64,000 nucleotides of DNA. Source: Enterobacterales bacterium CwR94. GTDB lineage: Bacteria; Pseudomonadota; Gammaproteobacteria; Enterobacterales; Enterobacteriaceae. Under the pieces are notes generated by a model. The model worked only from the letters and a program-made list of their open reading frames with translations. It made no database searches and was not told the origin of the DNA. The DNA lies in contig KZ478059.1 in the NCBI GenBank assembly GCA_002837195.1, forward strand, positions 496,001 to 560,000, in the 5' to 3' direction. Position numbers and translations under genes: made by a program. Each line of letters starts with the position of its first letter. Position 1 is the first letter of the stretch. Below are positions 57,277 to 62,941 of the stretch, in pieces.

Positions 57277-57410
57277 GCTATACCAACGTATACCCCGCTT
57301 ATGCGCCAGGTGACTTTTTACATCCCAATCACTGTTAGCGCCTGACTGGCCTGAATGCGAAAATACTGCGCGTTGAGGCAAGAGGACACTCTCACGCCAA
57401 CACCGCCTCG

Positions 57411-57447
57411 GTTGCCGGATAGACAGCGCTATCCGGCAACTTTTTTT
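57411..57447 (+). terminator. strong intrinsic terminator before the MgtL-like leader peptide
   Basis: GTTGCCGGATAG-ACAGCG-CTATCCGGCAAC is a perfect 12-base stem with a 6-base loop, followed at once by seven T residues. It lies 182 bases after the alcohol dehydrogenase gene and only 24 bases before the leader-peptide ATG. It either ends the dehydrogenase transcript or acts as an attenuator in the leader of the CorA-like operon. A shorter stem with GAGGC/GCCTC just upstream (57374-57410) could compete with it. Confidence 0.75.
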
Positions 57448-57471
57448 AATTTTTTGATGAGGAGAATCACG

Positions 57472-57564
57472 ATGGATCCCGACCCTGAACGGTGCGGTGA
57501 CGCCTACGTAACCCCTTTACATTTTAAAAACACCTTTTATCGGGCTTTTATCCCGAGGCTTTAA
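57472..57564 (+). CDS. MgtL-like regulatory leader peptide, 30 codons
   Basis: ATG at 57472, with GAGGAGA about 6 bases before it, opens a 30-residue peptide beginning MDPDPE and ending FIPRL. E. coli and Salmonella MgtL begin with a similar acidic/proline block (M-E-P-D-P-T-P, from memory). There the block destabilises ribosomes at low Mg2+ and so controls the magnesium transporter downstream. A longer in-frame reading from 57355 crosses the terminator stem and is rejected. The stop lies 51 bases before a gene set encoding three CorA-like proteins, the classic output of a Mg2+-sensing leader. Mechanism here is inferred by similarity. Confidence 0.68.
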   Translation: MDPDPERCGDAYVTPLHFKNTFYRAFIPRL

Positions 57565-57615
57565 CGCATTCTATGCATGAGAGGCCTTGGCGACGATCAG
57601 CCGCAGGAGATTCCC

Positions 57616-57948
57616 ATGCCGTTATACACGACGCCCTCCCACAACGGTTGCGCGATCATCCAAACACACGTTTGGACACGCAGCGCACGCAGACCCTCAC
57701 TCCAACCTACTCAACCTCCTCGTCGCTGGTCACGCTACGAGCGTTTGTCATTTTCCATGCTCGGCTATAGCTGGGGCATTCTGGTGGTCGCCGTCAGTGC
57801 TTTGCACTTTGGTAACTACGATTTGGAAACCAAAACCTCTTCCACATCAGGCTCACATGCCGGTTTTTATGAAAGCGTACGTGCACTGAAAACGGAGTCA
57901 TCGGCTCCGGTCCCACCCGCTAAAGATGCGCAAGGAGAGGCCAAATGA
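57616..57948 (+). CDS. small single-span membrane protein of the CorA-like operon (A)
   Basis: ATG at 57616, with AGGAG about 8 bases before it, gives 110 residues. An in-frame start at 57577 has no ribosome binding site. A basic, proline-rich N-terminus (RSARRPSLQPTQPPRRWSRYERL) precedes one TM helix (FSMLGYSWGILVVAVSALHF), then a hydrophilic tail of about 45 residues. Positive residues on the N-side suggest the N-terminus faces the cytoplasm. The stop overlaps the next ATG (ATGA at 57945-57948). I do not recognise the family. Its repeated pairing with CorA-like genes (see 58948) suggests an accessory subunit. Confidence 0.65.
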   Translation: MPLYTTPSHNGCAIIQTHVWTRSARRPSLQPTQPPRRWSRYERLSFSMLGYSWGILVVAVSALHFGNYDLETKTSSTSGSHAGFYESVRALKTESSAPVPPAKDAQGEAK

Positions 57949-58883
57949 CCCTCGACAATCGTTTGTTCGACGCAGACTGCACTGAGGCAGCACTGCATAA
58001 CTGGATTCGCGTCACACCGGACATGCCAGAGAAACTCGCCGACATTAAGCAGACTTTAGGCATCGATATTCATCGCACCCTGCATCAACATTTGCGTCAG
58101 GAAGGGGAATTCTGCTATTTCCCTGTCACCTTTCTGAACGTCTCTCAACAGGGCAAAAAGGCCAGCCGCGTGGTATTCGTGCTGGGACGCGATACGCTGA
58201 TTTCTCTGGAGCCGGCCCCTGCACCCGCGCCTTTAACCGCTGCCTTACAGCGCTTACAACGCGACACACGCACCACCGATGCATTTGAGAGTTTCGCCCT
58301 TATTTTGCAGGCAATTAACGATGCCACTGATGCATTACTGGATGCCCTCAACGACGATTTGGGTAACGTCCTGGTGCAGACCAATTCAGTGCTCAACAGC
58401 CTCGAAGCACGAGATCGCGATTTTGGTGTCAGTGACGTGGTCGCAGCCCAACTCGACCTTGGCGAAGTGGAAGAATTGCTGTCGGATTGCATCGAAAGCC
58501 AGTTGCAACTGGTGTTGGCCGCGCGCCACGTCCTCGCTCGTCTGCCTGCCGATCGCCTGCACTTGAAATCGCTGTATCACACACTGATTGAAGATATTGA
58601 AGCCGTTGAAGACCACGTCAGTTTTGTACATGACCGCGTTCGTTTGCTGCAAACCACCAATAACATGGCGCTGAATGTGAAACAGAACCAAATCGTGAAG
58701 GTCTTTTCGGTGATCACTGCGGTGTTCTTACCCGCCATGCTGATTTCCACCTACTACAGCATGAATGTGGCCAATATGCCGATTTTAGAGTGGCAATACG
58801 GTGAGCCCATGATCATTGCCCTCACCGCAGCGCTGGCGCTGTTACCCCTGCTGTATGTGAAACATCGCGGCTGGTTACGCTAA
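57945..58883 (+). CDS. CorA-like membrane protein 1 (SMN motif)
   Basis: This 312-residue MIT-superfamily protein has an N-terminal soluble alpha/beta domain (TEAALHNWIRVTPDMPEKL...FCYFPVTFLN) and a long helix leading to the membrane (NNMALNVKQNQIVKVFSVITAVFLPAMLISTYYSMNVANMP). A second TM helix and a basic C-terminus follow (LLPLLYVKHRGWLR). In CorA the end of TM1 carries GMN; here it reads SMN, in the right place before the M-P loop. Topology and length match a CorA channel subunit, pentameric in the family. It follows a small membrane protein with an ATGA overlap and precedes another after 64 bases. Confidence 0.82.
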   Translation: MTLDNRLFDADCTEAALHNWIRVTPDMPEKLADIKQTLGIDIHRTLHQHLRQEGEFCYFPVTFLNVSQQGKKASRVVFVLGRDTLISLEPAPAPAPLTAALQRLQRDTRTTDAFESFALILQAINDATDALLDALNDDLGNVLVQTNSVLNSLEARDRDFGVSDVVAAQLDLGEVEELLSDCIESQLQLVLAARHVLARLPADRLHLKSLYHTLIEDIEAVEDHVSFVHDRVRLLQTTNNMALNVKQNQIVKVFSVITAVFLPAMLISTYYSMNVANMPILEWQYGEPMIIALTAALALLPLLYVKHRGWLR

Positions 58884-58947
58884 CCCCACTTCATTAGCAG
58901 GATGACGGCGCATTCACCGTCAACCTCAAAAAAACAAGGAATACACC

Positions 58948-59280
58948 ATGTCGCAGACGCTTAACGACAAGACCACGCACGCCTCCGGTTCAGCCCAGCA
59001 GTGGCAAGGATTGGTTTGGAATACTGACTTAACCCTGCATGATGAGGACAATCACGCAGCAATCCAGCGTAAACAAGCCATTGATCAGGCGCGTGCCAGT
59101 CGCCCTCGCACGGCGCAAATTGAGCGCGAAATCATGATCGCCGTTATCGTGCTCTACATCCTGATTCTGGGAAGTTTCGCCGCCCTGCATATTTACGGTG
59201 AGTATGCCCTACCGGCCCCGGAAACGCCGGCTCAGCACCAGGCCCATCTCCCAGCGACTGAAAGCGAGACGCAGCCATGA
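58948..59280 (+). CDS. small single-span membrane protein of the CorA-like operon (B)
   Basis: This 110-residue protein has a hydrophilic N-terminus of about 65 residues (QQWQGLVWNTDLTLHDEDNHAAIQRKQ), one TM helix (IMIAVIVLYILILGSFAALHIY) and a short Pro/Ala/Glu-rich tail (LPAPETPAQHQAHLPATESETQP). AAGGAA lies before the ATG. Its stop overlaps the next CorA-like gene (ATGA at 59277-59280). Length, membrane layout and position mirror the small protein at 57616, although the sequences differ. It is likely a second accessory subunit. No known family is recognised. Confidence 0.65.
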   Translation: MSQTLNDKTTHASGSAQQWQGLVWNTDLTLHDEDNHAAIQRKQAIDQARASRPRTAQIEREIMIAVIVLYILILGSFAALHIYGEYALPAPETPAQHQAHLPATESETQP

Positions 59281-60218
59281 CGCCAAAGCACTTCCGCTTA
59301 CCCCAGACGGATGCGCATTTACGCCAGGGAGGCTGGCTGCGCCTGTCGATTACCCAGCAGGAGCACCTGATTGCCCATCAACATGAGCATCAGATCGACT
59401 TAACATCGGCACGCGGCCGCGCGGCCACAGAAGAGAATGGCTTTGTGATCATTCCCGTTGAGTTGGTGGTGCTGCAGGATAATCGCTATCAGGAAACCAC
59501 GGTGGTGTTCGCCCTGAGTTCTACCGTGTTGATCAGCCTTGAACACAATGTGCACCTCCATGCCTTTGACCATGTCAGCCAGCAGTGGATGGAAAAACTG
59601 CTACAGGGGGAACCCTCAAGCCCGGCTGCGATCCTGTTTACGCTGTTAGAAACACTGAATGACACGGCGCATGCCACGCTACGCGAAATATCAGCCCGTC
59701 TGGACGGGCTGAGTGAAACTGTCGCCGTTGCCAGCGGCGGCTATGCCATGTCAAAGCGTCAGGCGGGCGTTGCCGATATAGCAGGCACCGCCATTGCGCT
59801 TGGTGAAGCCGAGGAGCTGGTCGCAAAAACGGTGGAAGGACAACTGATGCTGGCGCGCGCCGGACGCTGGTTGCGTCGCGTCAGTGAGGATGCCGATTTC
59901 GTCAAACAACTGCCCGTATTGCTGTCGGATATCCAGAGCCTGCGGCGCTATGCCCGCTTTCAACACGATAAAATCCGCAATTTGCAACAGTCACTGATGA
60001 CCACCATGGACATCAAGCAAAATCAGGTGGTGAAAGTGTTTACCGTGGTGACCGCCGTGTTCACGCCCCCCACGCTGGTTGCCGCGTTCTACGGTCAAAA
60101 CTTTGCTTACATGCCGGAACTTGAATTGCCGTGGGGAGAGTGGATGGTGATGGGGTTAACTGGCCTGTTTGCCCTTATGCCACTGGCTTACATTAAACGT
60201 AAAGGATGGATGCGATGA
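59277..60218 (+). CDS. CorA-like membrane protein 2 (GQN motif)
   Basis: This 313-residue CorA-type protein shows the soluble N-domain (FVIIPVELVVLQDNRYQETTVVFALSS) and a long stalk helix. TM1 contains IKQNQVVKVFTVVTAVFTPPTLVAAFYGQNFAYMPEL, with GQN in place of GMN, and a basic end KRKGWMR follows TM2. GQN replaces the methionine of the selectivity motif while the asparagine is kept. It is paralogous to the proteins at 57945 and 60215. The start is translationally coupled to the small protein before it, and its stop is coupled to the next gene (ATGA at 60215-60218). Confidence 0.82.
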   Translation: MTPKHFRLPQTDAHLRQGGWLRLSITQQEHLIAHQHEHQIDLTSARGRAATEENGFVIIPVELVVLQDNRYQETTVVFALSSTVLISLEHNVHLHAFDHVSQQWMEKLLQGEPSSPAAILFTLLETLNDTAHATLREISARLDGLSETVAVASGGYAMSKRQAGVADIAGTAIALGEAEELVAKTVEGQLMLARAGRWLRRVSEDADFVKQLPVLLSDIQSLRRYARFQHDKIRNLQQSLMTTMDIKQNQVVKVFTVVTAVFTPPTLVAAFYGQNFAYMPELELPWGEWMVMGLTGLFALMPLAYIKRKGWMR

Positions 60219-61114
60219 ACCAACGCAATCCGTTGCAGGCGTGGAATCGCCTGTACGCCATTGATCATCAGGCGCTGGACGATCTCACCCGGCTTCACCA
60301 TGTCGACCTGCGGCCTCCGGCTGTCGCGCAGCCCGGCACTGCGATGCGCATTCGCTGCGTGCGGTTGGAAGCGGAACAGATATGGGCGACGGAAGTGCTC
60401 TGGCGTCAGGGCGCAGATGAACAACCGCTGTACACCGTGGAATGTGGTCAGCGCGTATTACAGCCCGGGCAAGCACAAGAACGCATCGACGCGCAGGGAT
60501 TGTCGGCAAGCAGCTCGCAGACCATCTCGTTAATGTTGATGCACCAGTTGCTGGGACAAGCGGTGCGTGTGCTGGAGCGCATCGATCAGGGATTAACTGT
60601 TTCGATGCAGGCGTTGCGCGTATTCCAGTTAAACGTCGGCACCAATCGGGCACGCGGCGCGGAAGACCTGGTCGATGTCGATAGCCACCTTTCAACGCTC
60701 AACGTACCGCTCTCTTTCGTGCTGCAGTCGCTGGACGATCTTGAACAGGCAGCGCTGCGTTTACGGCGGGTCGCACTGCAAGGCTCCGCCCTGGCGGCCA
60801 CACACATTGATGAGTTGATTGCAGAAATTGAAGGCGCACAACGACGCGCGCGTTTCACCCTGGAGCGTCAACGTTTTCACCGCCGGGCAACCGGGGAAAC
60901 GGTGGCAATGAGCGATCTTAATGTCACCAAGGTGTTTAGCGTGTTGTGGGCGGCTTTTATTCCGGGTACTGCATTAATCAACTGGTACGGGCAGAATTTC
61001 CGCGTGATGCCTGAACTGTCGTGGGATGGCTCCCTGTGGACGCAGTTATTATCGGTACTGATTTTAACCGCGGTACCGGTATTCATGGTGAAGCAATCAG
61101 GGGCACTCCGTTAG
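60215..61114 (+). CDS. CorA-like membrane protein 3 (GQN motif)
   Basis: This 299-residue CorA-type protein is the most divergent of the three. It has a soluble N-domain without the aromatic core of the others, a long helical stalk (IEGAQRRARFTLERQRFHRR), then TM1 MSDLNVTKVFSVLWAAFIPGTALINWYGQNFRVMPELSWDG and a second TM ending FMVKQSGALR. GQN stands at the GMN position. The ATG at 60215 overlaps the preceding stop (ATGA); an in-frame ATG at 60206 is less well placed. It ends the operon before a strong terminator. Possibly a modulatory subunit of a mixed channel. Confidence 0.8.
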   Translation: MNQRNPLQAWNRLYAIDHQALDDLTRLHHVDLRPPAVAQPGTAMRIRCVRLEAEQIWATEVLWRQGADEQPLYTVECGQRVLQPGQAQERIDAQGLSASSSQTISLMLMHQLLGQAVRVLERIDQGLTVSMQALRVFQLNVGTNRARGAEDLVDVDSHLSTLNVPLSFVLQSLDDLEQAALRLRRVALQGSALAATHIDELIAEIEGAQRRARFTLERQRFHRRATGETVAMSDLNVTKVFSVLWAAFIPGTALINWYGQNFRVMPELSWDGSLWTQLLSVLILTAVPVFMVKQSGALR

Positions 61115-61119
61115 CCGCC

Positions 61120-61152
61120 TGCTGCCGGGAAAGCCCGGCAGCATGGCTTTTT
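61120..61152 (+). terminator. intrinsic terminator of the CorA-like operon
   Basis: TGCTGCCGGG-AAAG-CCCGGCAGCA is a perfect 10-base stem followed by TGGCTTTTT, 6 bases after the last CorA-like stop. It separates the operon from the two-component genes. Confidence 0.78.
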
Positions 61153-61268: not shown

Positions 61269-62342
61269 ATGAAACTGGAGCCTTTACCTGTTCCTTCGCA
61301 AACGCATCGCAGAATACGCCTGCTGCTGATGGCCATCGTGATGGTGGCCATCTATATCCTTGATAGCATCACCAATTATGAAATCGCCGTATCGATGTTC
61401 TACACCGTGGTGATCTTGACCGCGGCCCGGGTTGTCGATCAGCGTGCCCTGTGGATGCTGACGGGGGCCTGTATTGGCATTACCGTCTTGAGTTTTGTCT
61501 CCACGCCGCAGGGGAACTACCGCGCGGGCGTGCTGAATATGATGATCAGTATTTTGTCGATTGTTATTACGGGTTATCTGGTGAGCCGAATGGAGGCCGC
61601 CAGAGCCGCCGCCCACTACGCACGGGAACGCCTGCTGCGCATCTCGCGAGAACGTAGCCTTGAGGGCCTGACCACCCTGATTGCTCACGAGATCAATCAG
61701 CCGCTGGCCGCAATAGTGACCAGTGGCAATGCGTGTCAGCGCTGGCTACGACACCCCTCCGCCAATCTGGAAAAAGCCGAACAGGCGCTTACCCGCATAT
61801 TGAACGATGCGCACCGCGCCAGTGACATTATTGCGCGCGTGCGGGCACTGACCAAAGGAGAGCCGCCCCAGAAGACGGCATTTGCCTTTAATCAGGCGAT
61901 AAAAGAGGTGGTGACGCAGTCAAAATCCGACATGACACGTAACGGCATCACCCTCACTCTGACGTTGATGCCCTCTCTCCCCGCCGCTCTCGGCGATCGG
62001 GTACAAATTCAGCAAGTGATGGCGAATCTGATCATTAATGCGATCGATGCGACAGTGCTACAAACCAGCGCGCCACGCACGATCTCCATTCGCTCCTGCC
62101 AGCAGGACGCAATGCTGGTATTTACCATTGTCGACAGCGGCATTGGCTTATCGGCAGAAGCTCACGCCCATCTGTTTGAGGCCTTCTGGACAACCAAAGA
62201 GCAAGGACTGGGTGTGGGGTTAAGCCTGTGTAGAACCATTATTGATGCTAATGGTGGACATATTTGGGCAGAGCCTCAGCCGCACGGCGGCGCATGCTTT
62301 GCCTTTCGCCTTCCCACCTTTGCAGAGGAATCCCCTGAATGA
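61269..62342 (+). CDS. membrane histidine kinase, FixL/HPK4-like
   Basis: This 357-residue sensor has four hydrophobic spans in residues 15-105 (LLLMAIVMVAIYIL, ISMFYTVVILTAARVV and two more) and almost no periplasmic domain, so it probably senses within the membrane or at its face. The H-box AHEINQPLAAIV has His140, and the ATPase domain has NLIINAIDA, DSGIGLS and GVGLSLC. The HEINQPL type of H-box belongs to the FixL/DctB-like HPK4 group. The stop overlaps the regulator start (ATGA at 62339-62342). The input signal is unknown. Confidence 0.85.
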   Translation: MKLEPLPVPSQTHRRIRLLLMAIVMVAIYILDSITNYEIAVSMFYTVVILTAARVVDQRALWMLTGACIGITVLSFVSTPQGNYRAGVLNMMISILSIVITGYLVSRMEAARAAAHYARERLLRISRERSLEGLTTLIAHEINQPLAAIVTSGNACQRWLRHPSANLEKAEQALTRILNDAHRASDIIARVRALTKGEPPQKTAFAFNQAIKEVVTQSKSDMTRNGITLTLTLMPSLPAALGDRVQIQQVMANLIINAIDATVLQTSAPRTISIRSCQQDAMLVFTIVDSGIGLSAEAHAHLFEAFWTTKEQGLGVGLSLCRTIIDANGGHIWAEPQPHGGACFAFRLPTFAEESPE

Positions 62343-62941
62343 ATGATGCTCGCGTTTATGTCATTGACGACGACAGTTCGGTACGTGCCGCACTGGCAGA
62401 CCTGTTGGCTTCCGTTGGGCTAGATGTCCAGGTGTTTAGCTCAACCCGGGAGTTTCTGGATACGCCACGAGAAAATTTGCCCGCCTGCCTGGTATTGGAC
62501 GTGCGGATGCCGGAACAGAGCGGTGTCGATTTCCATCGCCACATGAACAGTCTCGGCTTACATTTTCCGGTGATTTTTATTACCGGACACGGGGATATTG
62601 CAATGGGTGTCAATGCCATTAAAAACGGTGCCATTGAATTTCTGACTAAGCCCTTTAATGACCAGCAACTGCTCGATGCGATTCACCAGGGGATCGAACA
62701 GGATCGCTGTCGTTTGCAACGCGAATGTATCACTGCTGACCTGCTCCGCCGTTGGCAGTCGTTGAGTGACGGTGAACGTGATGTCACGCGCCTGGTCGTG
62801 CAGGGGTTGCTGAACAAACAGATTGCCTGGCAACTTAACCTCAGTGAAATCACGGTGAAAGTGCGCCGCGCCCATGCTATGCGCAAAATGCAGGCCGGCT
62901 CGCTGGCAGAGTTGGTACGTCTGGTCGCCGATGTCGTTTAG
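62339..62941 (+). CDS. FixJ-family response regulator
   Basis: This 200-residue regulator has a receiver with Asp11-Asp12, phospho-acceptor Asp54 (LVLDVRMPEQSG) and Lys104 (FLTKPFND), and a LuxR-type HTH (SLSDGERDVTRLVVQGLLNKQIAWQLNLSEITVKVRRAHAMRKM). It is encoded right after its likely kinase with a 4-base overlap. Targets are unknown; the CorA-like operon immediately upstream is a candidate but is separated by a terminator. A hairpin follows the gene. Confidence 0.88.
   Translation: MNDARVYVIDDDSSVRAALADLLASVGLDVQVFSSTREFLDTPRENLPACLVLDVRMPEQSGVDFHRHMNSLGLHFPVIFITGHGDIAMGVNAIKNGAIEFLTKPFNDQQLLDAIHQGIEQDRCRLQRECITADLLRRWQSLSDGERDVTRLVVQGLLNKQIAWQLNLSEITVKVRRAHAMRKMQAGSLAELVRLVADVV

Follow-up and report, generated by a model that had tools for sequence, protein, structure and literature searches.

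Three diverged CorA paralogues and two small membrane proteins in one operon: a candidate heteromeric channel for Mg2+ starvation

The operon and its genes

We analysed a window of 64,000 nt from Enterobacterales bacterium CwR94 (assembly GCA_002837195.1, contig KZ478059.1, positions 496,001 to 560,000), in which three CorA-family genes (CorA1, CorA2, CorA3) and two genes for small membrane proteins (sp1, sp2) form a single tightly coupled operon, sp1–CorA1–sp2–CorA2–CorA3 (57616–61114 of the window, + strand). The five open reading frames (ORFs) were confirmed in the window sequence where a first-pass annotation, made from the letters alone, had placed them. The ATGA overlaps that it described are present at 57945 (sp1/CorA1), 59277 (sp2/CorA2) and 60215 (CorA2/CorA3), and the terminators that it reported on both sides correspond to terminator-like hairpins at 57410–57441 and 61120–61143. 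The genes and the 3' hairpin are listed here; counts of 25 refer throughout to the window plus 24 further loci that carry all three CorA genes (triple loci).

57616–57948, +: sp1, single-span small membrane protein of 110 aa, kept in 25 of 25 triple loci; motif YERLSF...NYxLETxTSSTSGSHxxFY
57945–58883, +: CorA1, CorA-family protein with filter motif YYSMN (S-M-N)
58948–59280, +: sp2, single-span small membrane protein of 110 aa, kept in 25 of 25 triple loci; motif RPRTAxIEREIMIAVxVLYxLILGSFAxLHxYG
59277–60218, +: CorA2, CorA-family protein with filter motif FYGQN (G-Q-N)
60215–61114, +: CorA3, the most diverged CorA-family member, with filter motif WYGQN
61120–61143, +: intrinsic-terminator-like hairpin 3' of CorA3

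The overlap of CorA2 and CorA3 is kept in all 25 loci as 'cgATGA' ('agATGA' in one of them), and therefore the start of CorA3 was set at 60215 and not at the first ATG of the ORF (60206). For sp1 a start at 57616 is most likely, rather than at 57577, because the Shine-Dalgarno sequence (SD) and a hairpin at this position are conserved. The cassette also extends further 5' than the first-pass annotation had it, with a palindrome at 57279 and a leader peptide at 57472. As the genome holds three further CorA-family genes elsewhere, the operon is extra to the housekeeping CorA, and its assignment as the housekeeping CorA itself was rejected.

Three CorA paralogues without the GMN motif

As the textbook case of a homopentameric Mg2+ channel, CorA is encoded by a single gene, and its GMN ring is treated as a fixed selectivity element. 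Profile searches, as proposed with the first-pass annotation, placed all three CorA-like proteins above the curated cut-off of 27 bits for PF01544 (Pfam CorA), with 157.8 bits (E 4.9e-46) for CorA1, 136.3 bits (E 1.7e-39) for CorA2 and 44.4 bits (E 1.8e-11) for CorA3. The cut-off of the NCBIfam CorA equivalog TIGR00383 (200.75 bits) was missed by all of them (106.7, 129.2 and 33.8 bits, respectively), as was that of ZntB (NF007092, 292 bits), for which CorA1 scored 18.7 bits and CorA2 and CorA3 gave no match. AlphaFold2 models of CorA1 (pLDDT 77) and CorA3 (pLDDT 81) showed a complete CorA fold with a long stalk helix and two C-terminal transmembrane (TM) helices, and their best Foldseek matches were CorA structures from Thermotoga maritima (E 1.4e-12 for CorA1 and E 1.8e-7 for CorA3; probability 1.00 for both). 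The TM-scores of both models against CorA structures were moderate (0.4–0.7), a range to be expected when a flexible two-part protein is modelled as a monomer. The three CorA proteins of the operon share with T. maritima CorA (PDB 4i0u/3jcf; PF01544; 2-TM-GxN/MIT superfamily) the N-terminal alpha/beta domain, the stalk helix, the two C-terminal TM helices and the YxxN loop, but differ from it as three co-encoded diverged paralogues without GMN, accompanied by two single-pass partners and by control elements of the Mg2+ type.

The filter loops of the three paralogues line up directly with the YGMN of T. maritima CorA and read Y[YF]SMN in CorA1, [FY]YGQN in CorA2 and WYGQN in CorA3, with S-M-N, G-Q-N and G-Q-N, respectively, in 25 of 25 loci; the 27 single-CorA relatives all have YGMN. 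As the family signature at the pore entrance is GxN with Met, Val or Ile as x (PMC9276622), each of the three paralogues deviates from it, and does so identically in every locus. Both the filter Asn and the frame YGxNFxxMPEL are retained in CorA2 and CorA3 in all 25 loci, whereas in place of MPEL CorA1 mostly has MPIL. From the alignment, CorA3 carries Leu at the position of Asn288 and Trp at that of Ala298 of T. maritima CorA.

Inheritance of the five genes as a unit

When 84,980 species genomes were scanned with a CorA2 alignment of three rows, 80 loci were returned; 24 of them carry CorA1, CorA2 and CorA3 together, sp1 preceding CorA1 and sp2 lying in the gap from CorA1 to CorA2. As the scan used CorA2 patterns, it would miss loci without CorA2, which are partly covered by the CorA3 searches described below. 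Hosts among proteobacterial isolates are Pseudomonas (3), Comamonas (4), Bordetella, Alcaligenes (3) and Acinetobacter, and the remaining ones are Leucobacter (8), Actinotalea and three metagenome-assembled genomes (MAGs) assigned to Burkholderiales, Chthoniobacterales (Verrucomicrobiota) and Chloroflexi (Chloroflexota). The cassette spans at least four phyla, a figure in which MAG assignments may be wrong. All five genes are present in 25 of 25 loci, and the gene-neighbourhood survey that the first-pass annotation had called for gave the order sp1–CorA1–sp2–CorA2–CorA3 in 24 of them, the Chloroflexi MAG (L050) having the permuted order CorA2–CorA3–sp1–CorA1–sp2. Since the arrangement was found again in 24 independent loci it is not due to chance, and a reading of sp1 and sp2 as chance reading frames was rejected because of their conservation.

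Among 118 relatives, the CorA2 query detected ordinary CorA only. CorA3 was found in 10 of 54 genomes of the genus Leucobacter; as a query among 395 Enterobacterales it returned the window genome only, and its profile matched, among 369 gammaproteobacterial genomes, the window and two GMN-type two-gene systems. The latter were considered as solo CorA3 copies and rejected, being pairs of a small protein and a GMN-type CorA, and no solo SMN or GQN paralogue was found by the CorA3 searches in these 395 and 369 genomes. The first-pass annotation had named two observations that would speak against a joint system, namely small proteins missing from related loci and CorA-like genes occurring as independent, unlinked copies; neither was encountered, with sp1 and sp2 present in every triple locus and no diverged paralogue found on its own in these searches.

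A maximum-likelihood tree built from 103 sequences placed CorA1 (100/100), CorA2 (99/95), CorA3 (100/100) and the single CorAs (97/86) each on one side of a branch, and comparison of the five proteins' distance matrices over 23 loci gave correlations with r from 0.87 to 0.97 (permutation p 0.001). Seventeen genomes with the set have 3–6 CorA-family genes each, and in three actinobacterial genomes the set makes up the entire CorA content. No match to the operon was found in E. coli genomes. The only plasmid match, on Serratia marcescens plasmid AP028600.1 (L037), is a remnant in which a transposase gene region cuts CorA2 short and CorA3 is intact; the cassette can travel on plasmids. Searches of plasmids with the small proteins by tblastn gave no genuine match. 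A phage or viral origin was rejected, as no relative lies on a viral contig and the two 'phage' matches are in a record with bacterial metabolic genes. This record, CAKLQH020000001.1 (328 kb, labelled Acinetobacter phage MD-2021a), contains such genes together with a single CorA piece and looks like a misfiled bacterial contig.

The small proteins and a simpler two-gene system

Neither sp1 nor sp2 belongs to a family in Pfam or NCBIfam. Related proteins, likewise absent from the family libraries, occur in widespread two-gene units, in which one small single-span protein is usually encoded directly upstream of a single GMN CorA (Nocardia, Mycolicibacterium, Cellulosimicrobium, Oerskovia, a Streptomyces plasmid, Lysobacteraceae, Brevundimonas and Verrucomicrobia). 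These units resemble the operon in the CorA subfamily (HDKxRxLQ, KQNQxVKVF) and in the homologous small protein directly upstream, but have only one CorA and one small protein and have kept GMN. Ahead of the TM helix and within it, their small protein carries 'LE[RNT][EQ]..LY', and most lineages also have 'SSxSPxH' or 'SSxSP[YF]N' after the helix; in alignments the first region is kept by sp2 and the second by sp1. Profile comparison to the two-gene small protein gave 96.8% (E 2.4e-10) for sp1 and 96.5% (E 7e-10) for sp2, and a weak link of 63.7% between sp1 and sp2; TM helices inflate such scores, but the residues in common beyond the helix are specific. By sequence, both sp1 and sp2 are demonstrably homologous to the small protein that accompanies CorA in the two-gene systems. 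By the positive-inside rule we take the N-terminus of both to be cytoplasmic. As for the operon, no description of the two-gene system was found in the literature searched. In three Lysobacteraceae loci (L094, L097, L103) the two-gene small protein has a C-terminal extension of ~60 residues, possibly with a PepSY-like fold.

Control elements upstream of the operon

Four elements lie upstream of sp1 or reach into its start.

57279–57292, +: palindrome TATACCAACGTATA (TATAC-N4-GTATA), candidate operator
57410–57441, +: intrinsic-terminator-like hairpin with T7 after it, downstream of the palindrome and upstream of the leader ORF
57472–57564, +: leader peptide ORF MDPDPERCGDAYVTPLHFKNTFYRAFIPRL with a strong SD (GAGGAG) and an MDPDPE start, candidate Mg2+-sensing ribosome-destabilising leader
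57575–57619, +: RNA hairpin that would sequester the SD and start codon of sp1

Among actinobacterial and two MAG loci, the M-box (ykoK) riboswitch RF00380, an OFF switch at high Mg2+ (PMC12810186), was detected immediately upstream of nine triple loci and of one two-gene locus with 79–136 bits against a cut-off of 44. Seven of these are Leucobacter loci (L055, L056, L058, L059, L060, L062 and L091; 124–130 bits), and the others are L050 (130.7 bits), L052 (79 bits) and the two-gene locus L065 (135.9 bits); in L053 and L061 no M-box was found, and L057 lay outside this search. In the window a leader peptide takes its place. A leader ORF starting with M[DE]P[DE]P was found in 10 proteobacterial loci, 0.45–1.0 kb upstream of CorA1, against five other matches of this pattern in 789 kb of strand-specific sequence, and the three Alcaligenes loci have a leader with TTG start (MGPDPESE), so that an acidic/proline leader is present in 13 of 13 proteobacterial isolate loci. 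Leaders of such composition are known from MgtL (EPDP), which senses Mg2+ by ribosome drop-off (PMC11282234; also PMC11552253), and from MgtQ, which controls a Mg2+ transporter (PMC8092293). Like those of E. coli and Salmonella mgtA (MgtL) and Salmonella mgtB (MgtQ), the short ORF at 57472 has acidic and proline codons right after its start (PMC11282234, PMC8092293), preceded by the SD GAGGAG; it differs in being longer and in preceding an operon of the CorA type, and its Mg2+ response is a candidate one. Taken together, M-box riboswitches and acidic/proline leaders in related loci lend strong independent support to the proposal of the first-pass annotation that the operon responds to Mg2+. 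In three Alcaligenes loci (L048:10919–11381; also L047 and L049) the region downstream of the operon contains another leader ORF (MDPDPS) and, after it, a further MgtE_N-like small protein; a degenerate form of the palindrome precedes this second leader.

A hairpin hiding the ribosome-binding site of the next gene is likewise found in mgtQ–mgtB (PMC8092293). Hairpins orthologous to that at the sp1 start reach -28.8 kcal/mol in Comamonas and -28 kcal/mol in Pseudomonas (z -4.1 and -4.6). Covariation is modest, with 89% of cells paired, four pairs changed on both sides and a score reached by one of 500 shuffles. An alternative pairing (CCGAGGC/GCCUUGG), a candidate for freeing the ribosome-binding site, appeared in the centroid fold of the window only.

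The palindrome is the sole exact copy in the 4.48-Mb genome. Seven exact copies occur in 394 kb of triple loci, with 0.1 expected from base composition, all of them 100–240 nt upstream of the leader ORF, and with at most one mismatch it precedes the leader in 13 of 13 proteobacterial isolate loci. The hairpin at 57410–57441 may be the terminator of the upstream gene or an attenuator; it is a single copy in the genome, so that a REP-type repeat was rejected, and no hairpin was found at the equivalent place in other loci. In L040, L044 and L046 such hairpins are located upstream of the palindrome.

A proposed hetero-oligomeric channel and its alternatives

From the presence of two unrelated control elements of the Mg2+ type, the CorA core and MgtC neighbours in L051 (PF02308, E 9e-35) and, by sequence, L050, a role of the operon in Mg2+ starvation is very likely. 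Its product would be an entry channel for a divalent cation, most likely Mg2+, made when Mg2+ is short. As co-inherited paralogues with fixed, differing filter residues are combined with two small membrane partners, hetero-assembly is the best single explanation, and we consider it rather probable that the operon encodes a hetero-oligomeric cation channel of the CorA type, induced at low Mg2+ and including two single-pass subunits; the shared pentamer, the place of sp1 and sp2 in it, the ion and the direction of transport are what we infer. CorA1, CorA2 and CorA3 would co-assemble into one pentamer, whose entrance ring would mix S-M-N and G-Q-N instead of five G-M-N. Both small proteins would lie against the TM helices of the channel with the N-terminus inside, sp1 placing its invariant TSSTSGSHxxFY tail at the outer mouth. 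Such a system may have arisen by duplication of an ancestral two-gene unit (small protein and GMN CorA), the two conserved regions of the ancestral small protein having been split between sp1 (outer tail) and sp2 (the membrane-entry segment IERE...LY). At low Mg2+, ribosomes would abort on the MDPDPE leader, whereupon the RNA would leave the hairpin at the sp1 start and the operon would be translated, a Mg2+ response that we assume for the leader of the window. The TATAC-N4-GTATA palindrome may serve a regulator of transcription, for which the FixLJ-like pair encoded downstream is a candidate. For the fuller version, an obligately heteromeric bacterial CorA channel with three non-GMN paralogues in one ring and two single-pass subunits of a new small-protein family, induced by Mg2+ starvation via either an M-box or a ribosome-aborting peptide, we see even chances.

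Several observations weigh against this interpretation. Co-inheritance would also agree with three separate channels in one operon, and GQN and SMN break a signature tied to Mg2+ selectivity (PMC9276622), which could mean another ion or non-conducting subunits. On the side of control, no sigma-70 promoter was found on the operon strand of the window, the window has no M-box or other Rfam riboswitch even at a permissive threshold, and its sp1 hairpin (-17 kcal/mol, z -1.2) is barely better than shuffles.

Three homo-pentameric CorA-like channels of different ion preference or affinity, with sp1 and sp2 as partners of CorA1 and CorA2 only, would agree with an ancestral-type system of one small protein and one CorA, the operon then being two such pairs with CorA3 added, and also with the complete CorA fold of the CorA1 and CorA3 models and the own fixed filter motif of each paralogue. 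For separate channels, however, independent gain and loss would be expected, and all three are co-inherited in 25 of 25 loci across several phyla with none found alone; we regard this arrangement as unlikely. More doubtful still is a CorA2 and/or CorA3 that does not conduct and forms, with the small proteins, a sensor or valve gating CorA1 or another Mg2+ transporter. The altered filter of all three paralogues and the Leu and Trp substitutions in CorA3 would suit such a role, and yeast Lpe10 is a known modulating paralogue acting with Mrs2 (a reference cited in PMC9276622), but the filter Asn and its frame as conserved in CorA2 and CorA3 argue for retained ion contact. The mitochondrial Mrs2/Lpe10 pair is also similar to the operon in that CorA-type paralogues act on one Mg2+ channel, and differs in being eukaryotic, in having two paralogues and no operon with small partners, and in keeping GxN. 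A non-GMN filter and the precedent of ZntB, a CorA relative with a different ion, would be in line with a channel for another divalent cation (Ni2+, Co2+, Mn2+ or Zn2+) that aids survival at low Mg2+, or with an exporter. This is the least probable of the alternatives, given that both types of control element and the MgtC neighbours point to Mg2+ and that the ZntB profile was matched far below its cut-off by CorA1 and not at all by CorA2 and CorA3.

If the hetero-oligomeric channel is correct, it would be the first bacterial multi-subunit CorA-type channel with dedicated accessory subunits. No description of a multi-CorA operon with small subunits, and no counterpart to the layout that the first-pass annotation had held to be undescribed, was found in the literature searched, in which most subscription journals were not covered and which likewise yielded nothing of use on mutants of the CorA filter. 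Three paralogue-specific rings (SMN, GQN and GQN) and their partners would make the function of GMN, ring asymmetry in gating and accessory subunits of CorA testable, and the regulatory handle (M-box or leader peptide) indicates when to look for the channel. Furthermore, the operon defines a small membrane-protein family missing from Pfam and NCBIfam.

Neighbouring genes

Directly downstream of the operon, the window encodes a FixLJ-like pair of kinase and regulator, which recurs in about eight triple loci.

61269–62342, +: sensor histidine kinase (HATPase_c/HisKA), possible regulator
62339–62941, +: FixJ-like response regulator (Response_reg and GerE), candidate for binding the palindrome

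Kinase homologues are located downstream of CorA3 in triple loci of Pseudomonas, Comamonas and Acinetobacter. Between leader and sp1, Comamonas and Acinetobacter loci encode a small protein with a sub-threshold match to MgtE_N. Such proteins of ~115–130 aa (E 0.007–0.01) are encoded there in L042:532–927, L043:4771–5166 and L051:4920–5264 and might be a Mg2+-sensing partner. Porins follow CorA3 in Comamonas, Acinetobacter and Alcaligenes. In one Alcaligenes locus (L048:8957–10672) a single ORF fuses the N-terminal part of an MgtA-like P-type ATPase (Cation_ATPase_N and part of E1-E2_ATPase) to a complete porin.

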